Assembly (NCBI GenBank): GCA_020831585.1 | Contig: JAFIGE010000002.1 | Location: forward strand, 1 to 64,000 | Reading direction: 5' to 3' | Source: Opitutales bacterium | GTDB lineage: Bacteria > Verrucomicrobiota > Verrucomicrobiia > Opitutales > Oceanipulchritudinaceae | DNA: 64,000 bases | In this document: piece after piece, positions 14,697 through 58,195 of the stretch | How positions within the stretch are numbered: the first letter of the stretch is position 1 | How the letters are laid out: the number at the start of each line of letters is the position of its first letter | Translations under genes and position numbers: made by a program | The notes under the pieces: model-generated | Databases searched by the model: none | What the model was told of the DNA's origin: nothing | The model's input: only the letters and a program-made list of their open reading frames with translations

Positions 14697-15641
14697 TCAA
14701 CATCTGTTCAAAACGGTTTGGATGGCTTTGTGCTTTCTTTTGCTCAGAAAGCTTAGGAGACCGTCGGTTTGGATAAGTTTCCCGACCCATTCGACGCTGC
14801 CCGGCACGCTGGTCTGCTTTGGGTAGGCGGCAGCGGCTTCCTCCACGCGGTCGGGCGCTTGGGGCGCTTTGGCGGCGTCTGTCCTTGTTCTGTGAAGACG
14901 GGCGAGGATTCGCTCAACATAGGCAACATATTCGGCGAAAACATCGCCCGGGGGGATTTCCTGATGACCTTTGCCCTGCCGTCGTCGATTGAGCCATTGG
15001 TAGCCTAAGCGGGCGGGGCTTTGGCCAATTGCGGCCTCGCCGAGGCCGCAGTAACGGTAGCTTTGGGGTGTTTCAGCCAACCCCGCACGCACGGCGTTCA
15101 GGTCGATGTATGCGGCGACCGCTTTTACAGCCGGAGAGCCGGGCTCCAGCAGCACGCTACGATACCGCTCCGCCCAAAAAGTTCCGACGGTTTTGTAGTT
15201 TGCATTATACCAGAAAGTAAATCGGGTCTTCAGCTCCCGCATAAAAACCGGGATATGGCCCATCCGGGCTTTGAGCTGGCGTCTCAGTGTTTCGGCCCGT
15301 TCGCCGTCTTCTTCCAGGGATTTCTTCAGAGCGTCGGCATCGACGCCCAGAGAAGGCGAGCGCTTCCCGCCATAGAGAGCCCGAAAACGCCGCAAGAGTT
15401 CTAGGTCCGTCACCTCCTCTCGCGCAGGTTTCGAATCCACATGAATCAGGATGTGGAAGTGGTTCTTTAAGAAGCAGAACGTGATTACATCCAGCCCTGC
15501 GAATTCCGCCTGCGTGCGCAATATTCGCCGCATCTCTGCCATGCCCGCCTCATCAAGCAAAAAGCGCTTCTGCACCACACGCGACATCACATGCACCGCA
15601 ACCTCGTCATTCGAAAAGGGTCTCTTTGTGTATTTGCCCAT
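14697..15641 (-). CDS. REP-associated tyrosine transposase, second lineage
   Basis: This 314-aa HUH/Y1 transposase has its HUH motif in FLKNHFHILIHV and its catalytic Tyr in VAAYIDLNAVRAG. The rest follows the RAYT layout: VFMRELKTRFTFWYN, GTFWAERYRSVLLE, and a C-terminal SVEWVGKL...KRKHKAIQ region. Sequence differs clearly from the 46640 copy, and it lacks the 3' hairpin with GTCGCGAC core. It lies in the same orientation between glgE (96 bp upstream) and elbB (53 bp downstream), as if inserted in a co-directional run. No frameshift is seen. Confidence 0.88.
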   Translation of the reverse strand: MGKYTKRPFSNDEVAVHVMSRVVQKRFLLDEAGMAEMRRILRTQAEFAGLDVITFCFLKNHFHILIHVDSKPAREEVTDLELLRRFRALYGGKRSPSLGVDADALKKSLEEDGERAETLRRQLKARMGHIPVFMRELKTRFTFWYNANYKTVGTFWAERYRSVLLEPGSPAVKAVAAYIDLNAVRAGLAETPQSYRYCGLGEAAIGQSPARLGYQWLNRRRQGKGHQEIPPGDVFAEYVAYVERILARLHRTRTDAAKAPQAPDRVEEAAAAYPKQTSVPGSVEWVGKLIQTDGLLSFLSKRKHKAIQTVLNRC

Positions 15642-20144: not shown

Positions 20145-20243
20145 TTGTCTGGGCAGGAATATGGTGGGGTGGGCGAGGGCGATTCAAGAGAAAAGGAACC
20201 CGCGAAATGTCGGTGGGAGTGATCGCAAAGGTTGTGACATTTT

Positions 20244-20751
20244 TCAGTTGCGTTTCGCCACGGTCGCGACGGTCCCGAAGTCGGCACCACCACCGTCTTC
20301 CGCAAGCGGTTTGGGCTTTCTCCTTCGTTGCAGCGCCGACCGCGGTCCCCTGGTCTCTCCGAAGAGGCGGCATTCCCGGCCCCACCCCGGCTGCACAACC
20401 GCACCCGGTAGCGCTCGTGCCATTTCGTCGCCCAAGTCAGCCCGCCCTCGATCCGGGCGATTCCCCGCCGCGCGGCCGAGCCACCCGCGCAGGCTTCACC
20501 AAAACCGCTGAAACCATAGGTGCCCGCATCCTCTACCAAGCCCGCCCGCACCGGGTTCAAATTGATCTACGCCGCCACCATCCTCTGCGCCTCCGTATCT
20601 GCCTCCACCGCCCCACCTGATCCGCGTCGTCCAAAATTCCGGTCTCCTTCGGAGCGTGTCGCACGAAGATATGAAAGTGACTAGCCATAAAGTAATACGT
20701 CAGCACCTCCATCCCTGCGAACGCCGCCTGCGAGCGTATAATATGGCGCAC
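20244..20751 (-). pseudogene. RAYT pseudogene with internal deletions and a stop at the catalytic Tyr
   Basis: Reading the minus strand, RHIIRSQAAFAGMEV...ASHFHIFV keeps the HUH motif. After DDADQVGR the sequence jumps about 270 bp, compared with the 46640 copy, into VEADTEAQRM in another frame. The codon for the catalytic Tyr is now TAG (20567-20569), followed by INLNPVRAGLVEDAG. A second deletion removes most of the C-terminal domain. It ends with the element's 26-nt hairpin and a TGA. The first ~35 codons are missing too. Similarity to the 46640 copy continues about 30 bp past the stop (a shared CCTTTGCGATCAC). Confidence 0.88.
20254..20279 (-). repeat. 26-nt terminal hairpin of RAYT element (degenerate)
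   Basis: It has the same length, TTC/GAA ends and GTCGCGAC core as the others, with three mismatches in 13 pairs. This fits a dead copy no longer under constraint. Confidence 0.65.
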
Positions 20752-35433: not shown

Positions 35434-35997
35434 GGTAGGCCCTCCGTTTTCTCCCCGTGCTCCCATCTGTCGAGAACATTCCTCTTCGGAGGGTGCCGGA
35501 GAGTGGGTATCCGTGTCGTCACATCACTAAAGTTATCATCCGGCGCGGCGAGTTGGTAGCAAGAGGCTGGGGATCGAGGCGAAGACGTTTCTGCAAACCG
35601 ACTTTGACACCATGCAGGTGGATTTTCTCCAAAGCATCAGCTTGGCCCCGTGGCTTTTTTTTAGATGTTCAGAATATTAAACTAGCGTATTTGAGGATGT
35701 TATCGAGATTGTTGGATGAGTAGGCATTTTTGTCGGCGGTTAAGGTGTGCGTGATTGGTTTGCAGCCACCTCATTTCGAAGGTGTTTCAGAAGAGACGGT
35801 CGGCTTGAAAGCAAGGCGACTTGGACGACCCAATGGCACGAGTGTACTGGGCACGTTTGCGCTGCCGGATGCGCCTGCGGGCGTGCAGCCTCTCCAGATG
35901 AACCGGAAGCCTTCCGGGGAGGCGAAGGGCGAAGACAGGCAATCGACCGTTGTGGTAAAAGGATCGGGACTTTGAGGACACCCCGGCTGGAAGGCCC
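35434..35997. other. Intergenic region with a RAYT remnant
   Basis: The part 35434-35660 shows no gene; it includes the leader of the PfkB gene. The part 35663-35975 is an internally deleted RAYT copy, described separately. The cysH stop follows 20 bp later. Confidence 0.5.
35663..35975 (+). pseudogene. RAYT remnant with two internal deletions
   Basis: The remnant begins with the family's left-end motif (AGATGTTCAGAATATT), and the ATG follows at 35717. It reads MSRHFCRRLRCA*, stop, LVCSHLISKVFQKRR, matching the first ~30 codons of the 46640 copy. It then jumps to the C-terminal part (TWTTQWHE, closest to the copy at the window start), skips the HUH and Tyr regions entirely, and ends with a half-preserved right end (TCGACCGTTGTGGTAAAAGG, about 35943-35962). 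Both catalytic motifs are lost, so it cannot move by itself. Confidence 0.82.
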
Positions 35998-46535: not shown

Positions 46536-46583
46536 TTATGAGCGCCAATCCTTGGCCCTAATCTCCGAGCGCAAAGCTTTTTT

Positions 46584-46600
46584 AAATGTTCTGAACATTT
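46584..46600 (+). repeat. Left-end palindrome of RAYT element
   Basis: AAATGTTCTGAACATTT is a perfect 8-bp inverted repeat around one base, 39 bp before the ATG of the transposase gene. Diverged versions precede the ATG at similar distance in the remnants at 35663 (AGATGTTCAGAATATT) and in the miniature units (AATGTTCTGTACAATTT). It probably marks the left end or promoter/operator of the element. Confidence 0.6.
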
Positions 46601-46639
46601 GCGCATTGACAGAGGCCAGGCAGGTGTTTGAGTGGCCCA

Positions 46640-47638
46640 ATGAGCAGGAGGTTTTGCAGGCGGCTACGTTATCCAAGGTTGGCATGCCACCACCTTATTT
46701 CGCGGGTGGTGCAGAAAAGACGGTTGATGGATGAGGAGGCGATGGAGGCGATGCGCCATATTATGCGCTCGCAGGCGGCGTTTGCGGGGATGGAAGTGCT
46801 GACGTATTGCTTTATGGCGAATCACTTCCACATCTTCGTGCGGCTGGATCCGAAGGAGACGGAGGACTTGGACGACGTGGGGCTGGTGGGGCGGTTTCGT
46901 GCTTTGTATGGTGGGACGCGTTGCGCTTCGCTGGGGCTGGATGCGGATGATCTGGAGGTGTTTCTGGCGAAGAATAGTGACTCCGCAGAGGGCATCCGTC
47001 GACGCCTGAAGGCGCGGATGGGAGATGTATCGGTCTTTATGCGGGAGGTGAAGACGCGCTTTACTTTGTGGTATAATCAGGAGCGCGGGACGGTGGGCAC
47101 GTTCTGGGCGGAGCGTTTCCGCAGTGTGGTGGTGGAGGCGGATACGGAGGCGCAAAGAATGGTGGCGGCTTACATCGACTTGAACCCGGTGCGGGCGGGT
47201 CTGGTGGAGGACGCGGGCGACTATGGCTTCAGTGGTTTCGGGGAGGCTTGCGCGGGTGGCTCGGCCGCCCGGCGGGGAATCGCCCGGATCGAGGGCAAGG
47301 CCTCTTGGGCGACGAAATGGCAGGAGCGCTACCGTGCGCGGTTGTGCAGCCGGATGGGTCCGGGAATGGGGCCTCTTCGGAGAGACCAGAGGACCGCAGC
47401 AAACGGCGCAATAAAGGAGGAAGCGATGCCTGGAGCAGGTCTTGTTAAAGAATCCGGGCTGCTCTCAAAGATCCGCGCCTTCAGTGAGAGCTGGGTAGTG
47501 GGGACGGTTGCCTGGGTGGAAAGCTTCTGTGCGGTGAACGGCTGGCTGGGGTTTAAGAAGGGAAGAAAGGCCCAACCGGTTGCACCGGACGGCGGTGCTG
47601 AATTCGCGACGGTCGCGACCGTGGTGAAACGCCGGTGA
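46640..47638 (+). CDS. REP-associated tyrosine transposase, full-length type copy
   Basis: This 332-aa protein starts at ATG 46640 (MSRRFCRRLRYPRLACHHLISRVVQKRR); a TTG 12 nt upstream is less likely, because both remnants keep this ATG. The HUH motif is in CFMANHFHIFVR and the catalytic Tyr in VAAYIDLNPVRAGLVEDAG. The middle reads VFMREVKTRFTLWYN and GTFWAERFRSVVVE. A C-terminal domain (WVVGTVAWVESFCAVNGWLGFKKGRKAQPV) precedes the tail encoded by the 26-nt hairpin. It is intact and can serve as parent for the deleted and miniature copies in this window. Confidence 0.92.
   Translation: MSRRFCRRLRYPRLACHHLISRVVQKRRLMDEEAMEAMRHIMRSQAAFAGMEVLTYCFMANHFHIFVRLDPKETEDLDDVGLVGRFRALYGGTRCASLGLDADDLEVFLAKNSDSAEGIRRRLKARMGDVSVFMREVKTRFTLWYNQERGTVGTFWAERFRSVVVEADTEAQRMVAAYIDLNPVRAGLVEDAGDYGFSGFGEACAGGSAARRGIARIEGKASWATKWQERYRARLCSRMGPGMGPLRRDQRTAANGAIKEEAMPGAGLVKESGLLSKIRAFSESWVVGTVAWVESFCAVNGWLGFKKGRKAQPVAPDGGAEFATVATVVKRR
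46688..46711 (+). repeat. Internal 24-nt hairpin near the RAYT start
   Basis: CACCACC and GGTGGTG (7 bp) enclose a 10-nt loop within codons for HHLISRVV. In the miniature units the arms are CACCACT/AGTGGTG (57904-57927), and in the 35.7-kb remnant CACCT/AGGTG (35767-35784). The bases change but the pairing is kept. Confidence 0.55.
47603..47628 (+). repeat. 26-nt terminal hairpin of RAYT element
   Basis: The core is a perfect 14-bp palindrome (ACGGTCGCGACCGT). Outer pairs include one G-T wobble and one mismatch (pair 6). It overlaps the last ten codons of the transposase gene. Confidence 0.78.
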
Positions 47639-47733
47639 AATATGCGAAAACCTTTGCGATCACACTCATCCGGACAGCGCACTTCTTCCGATGTGACTTG
47701 CTAGGCGGAAGGGGCTGATTCTTCTTCGGCGGC

Positions 47734-57557: not shown

Positions 57558-57604
57558 TAAGAAACAGCCTAGATTCTTTATCCGAAAAGCAAATGAAAAA
57601 ATCT

Positions 57605-57797
57605 GCTGCAATGTTCTGTACAATTTCGTTGACATTAGTTTCGATGGTTTTTGGCTATATGAGTAGCAATATTTGTCGGCGGTTTCGTTATCCATGTTTG
57701 GCCTGCCACCATTATTTCGAGAGTGGTGTAGAGAAGACGGCTAATGGGGCGGCGGAGAGGATTTCGAGGAGGTCGCGACTGTCTCGAAACGACACGT
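57605..57797 (+). repeat. Miniature unit 1
   Basis: This most divergent unit keeps more of the transposase start (MSSNICRRFRYPCLACHHYF, ATG at 57659). Its hairpin is at 57763-57788. Confidence 0.75.
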
Positions 57798-57996
57798 GCT
57801 GCTTCAATGTTCTGTACAATTTGATTGACCTCAGTTGGGATGGTTTTTGGCTAGATGAGCAGGTTTTTTTTGACGGTGGTTGTGGTATTCATGTTTGGTC
57901 TGCCACCACTTTATTTCGAGAGTGGTGTAGAGAGGACGGCTGATGGGCCGGCGGAGAGGATTTCGAGGAGGTCGCGACTGTCTCGAAACGACACGT
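57798..57996 (+). repeat. Miniature unit 2
   Basis: This 199-bp unit has its ATG at 57855, the internal hairpin at 57904-57927 (CACCACT/AGTGGTG) and the right hairpin at 57962-57987. It differs from unit 3 at only a few positions. Confidence 0.8.
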
Positions 57997-58195
57997 GCTG
58001 CTTCAATGTTCTGTACAATTTGATTGACCTCAGTTGGGATGGTTTTTGGCTAGATGAGCAGGTTTTTTTTGACGGTGGTTGTGGTATTCATGTTTGGTCT
58101 GCCACCACTTTATTTCGAGAGTGGTGTAGAGAGGACGGCTGATGGGTCGGCGGAGCGGATTTCGAGGAGGTTGCGACTGTCTCGAAACGATACGG
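57997..58195 (+). repeat. Miniature unit 3
   Basis: This is a near-identical copy of unit 2, with ATG at 58054 and right hairpin at 58161-58186. Differences include GTTGCGAC for GTCGCGAC and GCGGATT for GAGGATT. Confidence 0.8.

Follow-up and report, generated by a model that had tools for sequence, protein, structure and literature searches.

Tandem array and parent element

The analysed window, a 64,000-nucleotide stretch of a contig from an Opitutales bacterium, carried divergent sensor-kinase and mazG genes separated by a tandem array derived from a RAYT-type transposon. Tandem Repeats Finder called this as the sole tandem array, at 57603–58194, with a period of 199, 3.0 copies, and 92% matches. 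The units (u1, 57605–57800; u2, 57801–57999; u3, 58000–58194) were direct repeats arranged head to tail, with identities of 98% between u2 and u3 and 87% between u1 and u2. This agrees with the preliminary description, which had placed three units at 57605–58195 and recognised u2 and u3 as nearly identical 199-bp repeats. The features of the array were as follows, where a slash marks a junction.

57605–57746, + strand: u1, left end and first ~30 codons of the RAYT (78% to 46640–46730, E 3e-15; junction at 152/1008)
57747–57796, + strand: u1, last ~17 codons of the RAYT and 3' hairpin (74–78% to RAYT 3' ends; z 6.7 over shuffles)
57791–57802, + strand: u1/u2 duplication junction GACACG/TGCTGC, read from the sequence, place approximate
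57801–57945, + strand: u2, left end and first ~30 codons (z 29.6 over shuffles)
57946–57994, + strand: u2, RAYT 3' end and hairpin TTTCGAG..CTCGAAA (z 6.9)
58000–58144, + strand: u3, left end and first ~30 codons (98% to u2)
58145–58194, + strand: u3, RAYT 3' end and hairpin (77–79% to RAYT 3' ends)

The 5' two-thirds of each unit corresponded to the start of the RAYT gene (46640–46730; 75–78% over ~91 bp, with E-values of 3e-15 to 2e-11 in the in-window comparison), and the 3' quarter corresponded to its end (47587–47631; 73–79% identity). When the unit parts were compared with ~29 full genomic RAYT copies, using dinucleotide shuffles as the null, the z values of the best local scores were 29.6 (5' part), 6.9 (3' part), and, with the non-coding left end taken by itself, 8.2. 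The resemblance to the transposase ends was thus far above chance, and the alignment confirmed the proposed structure, in which the left-end motif and first codons are joined to the last codons and 3' hairpin with the middle gone. The junction in the unit lay at element position ~152/1008, corresponding to a deletion of ~855 bp. The left and right parts were joined out of frame and an in-frame TAG lay within the 5' coding part of u2; the units were non-coding. The sequence GACACG/TGCTGC recurred at the u2/u3 border, TGCTGC was also present 5' of u1, and GATACG closed u3.

The window also contained a full-length element of the parent type and four other RAYT-related segments.

46579–47675, + strand: full-length parent-type RAYT, comprising the left end, the CDS 46640–47638 (332 aa), and the right end to about GATCACAC
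1–617, + strand: 3' part of a RAYT copy, severed by the contig start
14697–15641, − strand: intact RAYT of a second subfamily (314 aa; 48–55% identity to the 46640–47638 copy)
35656–35972, + strand: derivative, left end and codons 1–28 joined to codons 215–273, right end not recognised
20219–20751, − strand: derivative, codons 38–84, 165–258, and 308 to the end plus the right end, left end lost

The limits of the parent element (~1.09 kb) were defined by aligning ~29 full copies. Its left end consisted of TTTTTTAATGTTCTGAACATTT followed by a TTGACA box and the start codon ATGAGCAG..., and its right end contained GGTCGCGACC, with the tail ...GGTGACAACCTTTGTGATCACACC in most close copies. Since the outside sequence varied between copies, the mapped ends represent the ends of a repeated element. 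The left end of one full copy elsewhere in the genome (C148) bore, at its outer edge, a 20-bp tandem duplication, GGCCGTTTGTAATGTTCAGA. The parent protein contained a Y1_Tnp domain (Pfam PF01797, 37.9 bits against a cut-off of 23), the HUH motif (NHFH), and, as AAYIDLNPVRAGLV, the Y---NP(V/L)(R/K)xG motif at the catalytic tyrosine (motif definition: PMC2817692, PMC6006769). The score against NCBIfam REP_Tyr_transpos was 55.9 bits, below the cut-off of 80, and solved structures gave weak matches to IS200-type transposases. Judged from the Y1_Tnp, HUH, and AAYIDLNPVRAGLV motifs, the parent protein is RAYT-like. Several RAYTs at a distance similar to that of the 14697–15641 copy were found elsewhere in the genome. 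The segment at 35656–35972 had initially been regarded as a copy keeping its right end, and this assignment was dropped because its last segment aligns to codons 215–273.

RAYT copy number and the deletion series

The parent transposase had at least 153 protein matches in its own genome, most of them 70–95% identical, and a minority (~36–55% identical) corresponded to other subfamilies. Many matches were cut by contig ends, the assembly consisting of 262 contigs. The left-end palindrome occurred at ~90 places and the left end followed by TTGAC at 94 places, compared with 0 for the reversed control in the former case and 0 for the control in the latter. RAYTs are generally described as domesticated, non-mobile, single-copy transposases, reported to be without the self-mobility of insertion sequences (Nunvar 2010, PMC2817692; Bertels & Rainey 2011, PMC3116915), whereas the parent gene, with its 153 protein matches and 94 left ends, was not single-copy. 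Searches of three genomes of a sibling genus (G002, G009, and G013) with a relative of the parent protein gave 84, 100, and 150 matches, and the genomes of the other relatives yielded 0–17 each.

The palindrome sites (~90) were of the same order as the element copies, and a clear REP population independent of them was not evident in the genome. The link to REP/BIME palindromes drawn in the preliminary description therefore fits poorly, the parent RAYT being high-copy and IS-like. Of the interior sites examined, only three lacked a RAYT body. At C85:10899, C201:5095, and C210:14058, a left-end-like motif (TGTTCWGAACA) and TTGAC were present with no recognisable RAYT body nearby. These sites either are worn left ends from a different subfamily or represent an operator-promoter motif of the host.

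Seventeen internal-deletion derivatives were catalogued in the genome, including the array and the two others in the window, at 35656–35972 and 20219–20751. Those outside the window had the following codon junctions.

C4: 19/196
C42: 52/286
C68: 39/181
C79: 84/301
C99: 31/169
C100: left end to codon 133
C101: 82/138
C105: 31/105
C114: 35/194 and 227/309
C150: 29/90 and 201/307
C211, 12.2–13.8 kb: 38/176
C211, 3844–4049 (solo): 31/323
C256, two separate derivatives: 47/204; 152/316

No pair among the 17 derivatives shared both breakpoints, and most kept both ends. The solo derivative C211:3844–4049 (~205 bp) had nearly the layout of an array unit, and its junction, GATGAGG/TCGCGACC, was independent of that of the array; no copies of it were found among the matches listed in a DNA search of the genome. 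The picture suggested by these sequences is one of repeated independent internal deletion. The deletion series from whole gene to mini-element that had been noted in the window was accordingly recovered, and it extended across the genome.

The left breakpoints were unevenly placed, with 9 of the 17 falling within element positions 146–179 (34 bp), where a rough estimate without a formal test would predict ~1 of 17 if breakpoints were spread over ~1 kb. The cluster sits just 3' of an internal hairpin (~108–139, GCCACCACC..GGTGGTGC). Junction microhomology was modestly higher than random (mean, 1.8 vs 0.8 bp; ≥4 bp in 16% vs 3%), an estimate that hinges on the boundaries chosen by the aligner and in which a few junctions, at the T-rich left edge, are spurious; such a modest excess is expected for illegitimate recombination. 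The sequence GGAGGCG provided 7 bp of microhomology at the C99 junction and 5 bp at the C105 junction. The hairpin and nearby GGAGGCG direct repeats could promote slippage; alternatively, the first ~150 bases could represent a minimal left end that derivatives had to keep for mobilisation. Synonymous variation over codons 13–36 (0.19–0.23) was below the mean (0.28) yet not under that of codons 49–72, so no special constraint on the internal hairpin at the DNA level was apparent from this measure, which counts slightly against the minimal-left-end reading. For the right-end hairpin, covariation exceeded that of slid versions, and the contrast with shuffles was weak (15 of 500 reached its score).

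Origin and status of the array

We consider it likely that a high-copy transposon of the RAYT type (IS200-like, Y1/HUH) gave rise to the array by internal deletion followed by duplication in place, and that the product is dead and non-coding. Homology shows that a full element of ~1.09 kb once lay in the intergenic region of the divergently oriented kinase and mazG genes. A single event of illegitimate recombination or replication slippage would then have excised ~855 bp (codons ~30 to ~316) and spared both ends. As the junction sequence and the divergence among units suggest, the ~199-bp remnant and a few flanking bases (TGCTGC...GAYACG) were probably duplicated in tandem at the site, once long ago (u1 now differs by 13%) and once recently (u2 and u3). 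The border GACACG/TGCTGC holds pieces of both outer flanks, as would be expected if a block had been duplicated in tandem together with a small amount of flanking DNA. No spread to other loci was seen, and the array would be one of many copies with independent internal losses. Two aspects of the series count against a dead decay product: the clustering of left breakpoints is more orderly than random decay predicts, and the retention of ends in most derivatives is what would be expected if they were needed for mobilisation, with the reservation that derivatives were traced via left ends, which favours copies that keep them.

In a MITE family, one deletion is expected at many loci. The array units kept both terminal regions of their parent and lacked the coding middle, as a MITE does, but several dispersed copies with one common deletion were not found. 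The genome search for the 199-bp unit, by which the preliminary description proposed to check its reading, and for which it had set a lack of dispersed copies as refuting, returned no dispersed copies: among the matches listed, the 152/1008 junction was confined to the three adjacent units, and the other matches to u2 ended at unit position ~146 or were 3' ends. Nor was the unit found among the matches listed in a DNA search of 36 related genomes with u2. Very diverged copies could escape such searches, and breaks in the assembly at RAYT copies may hide dispersed ones. The origin of the units from both ends of a RAYT, their tandem arrangement, and the deletion series thus stand; "MITE-like", if taken to mean a family that is mobile and dispersed, is not supported.

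These results make it unlikely that RAYTs mobilised or still mobilise the unit in trans as a genuine non-autonomous (MITE/REPIN-like) element, with the array formed by transposition or circle-junction insertion beside itself. Such an element would account for the retention of both ends and both hairpins, for left breakpoints gathered just after the internal hairpin, and for the solo derivative of similar layout at C211:3844–4049, and intact transposase copies are abundant. However, the same junction occurred at no second locus among the matches listed, the look-alike has a junction of its own, the outer-flank bases on both sides of the unit border fit local duplication better, and each of the three units has a degraded left-end palindrome.

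Recruitment of the array as a regulatory or structural DNA or RNA element between kinase and mazG appears very improbable. The array does take up most of the divergent intergenic region, its hairpins persist, and u2 and u3 are nearly identical, but a promoter/terminator scan and Rfam gave no match for it, its hairpins were not clearly stabler than those of shuffles, and nothing unit-like was found near mazG in 15 family-level relatives, where the kinase is not beside mazG. It is likewise very improbable that misassembly of this repeat-rich draft accounts for part of the copy number or of the tandem structure. The 262 contigs, many ending inside RAYT copies, would be compatible with an artefact, but u1 differs from u2 by 13%, u2 and u3 differ at several sites, and both flanks of the array are unique genes.

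Taken by itself, an array deleted and duplicated in place is unremarkable as a decay product. More surprising is the high-copy RAYT background, which is also the part likely to be of most interest to specialists. We regard it as quite unlikely that the RAYT here still acts like an insertion sequence with many copies and sheds derivatives reduced to the ends, with a favoured left boundary. If true, this would be a stage, postulated but not observed, in the emergence of non-autonomous REPIN-type elements, which are proposed to descend from the ends of an IS200-like ancestor; the array and the solo derivative in C211 would count among its first products. More than 100 RAYT copies with defined ends and graded deletions down to the ends alone offer natural material for studying what end sequences are enough for mobilisation and whether RAYT deletion derivatives ever turn mobile.

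Relation to known RAYT systems

The parent shares NHFH, AAYIDLNPVRAGLV, and Y1_Tnp with class 2 RAYTs (TnpA_REP). Within this class, subclass 2.3 was described as the sole group that lacks flanking REPs and reaches several copies in a genome, with a median length of 325 aa (Quentin et al. 2018, PMC6006769). The parent resembles it, by description, in length (332 vs 325 aa) and multi-copy state, but 'more than five copies' was reported for that subclass (PMC6006769) compared with at least 150 matches here, which have conserved element ends. The array units are similar to REPINs and BIMEs in being short and non-coding with two structured, RAYT-related ends. In contrast, a REPIN consists of two REPs in inverted orientation and is dispersed in many copies, whereas the units (~199 bp) join a left and a right end directly, contain coding remnants, and occur in one array; no inverted REP pair with a GTAG head was seen in them. 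Internal-deletion derivatives of IS200/IS605 elements, like MITEs, also keep both ends and lose the coding middle, and the array differs from them in that no dispersed multi-copy family shares its deletion. TIRtrons (TIRYTs; Di Nocera et al. 2013, PMC3733652) are likewise RAYT-like genes without flanking GTAG REPs, but they have long terminal inverted repeats, whereas the left (AATGTTCTGAACATTT) and right (GGTCGCGACC) ends of the present element are unlike each other.
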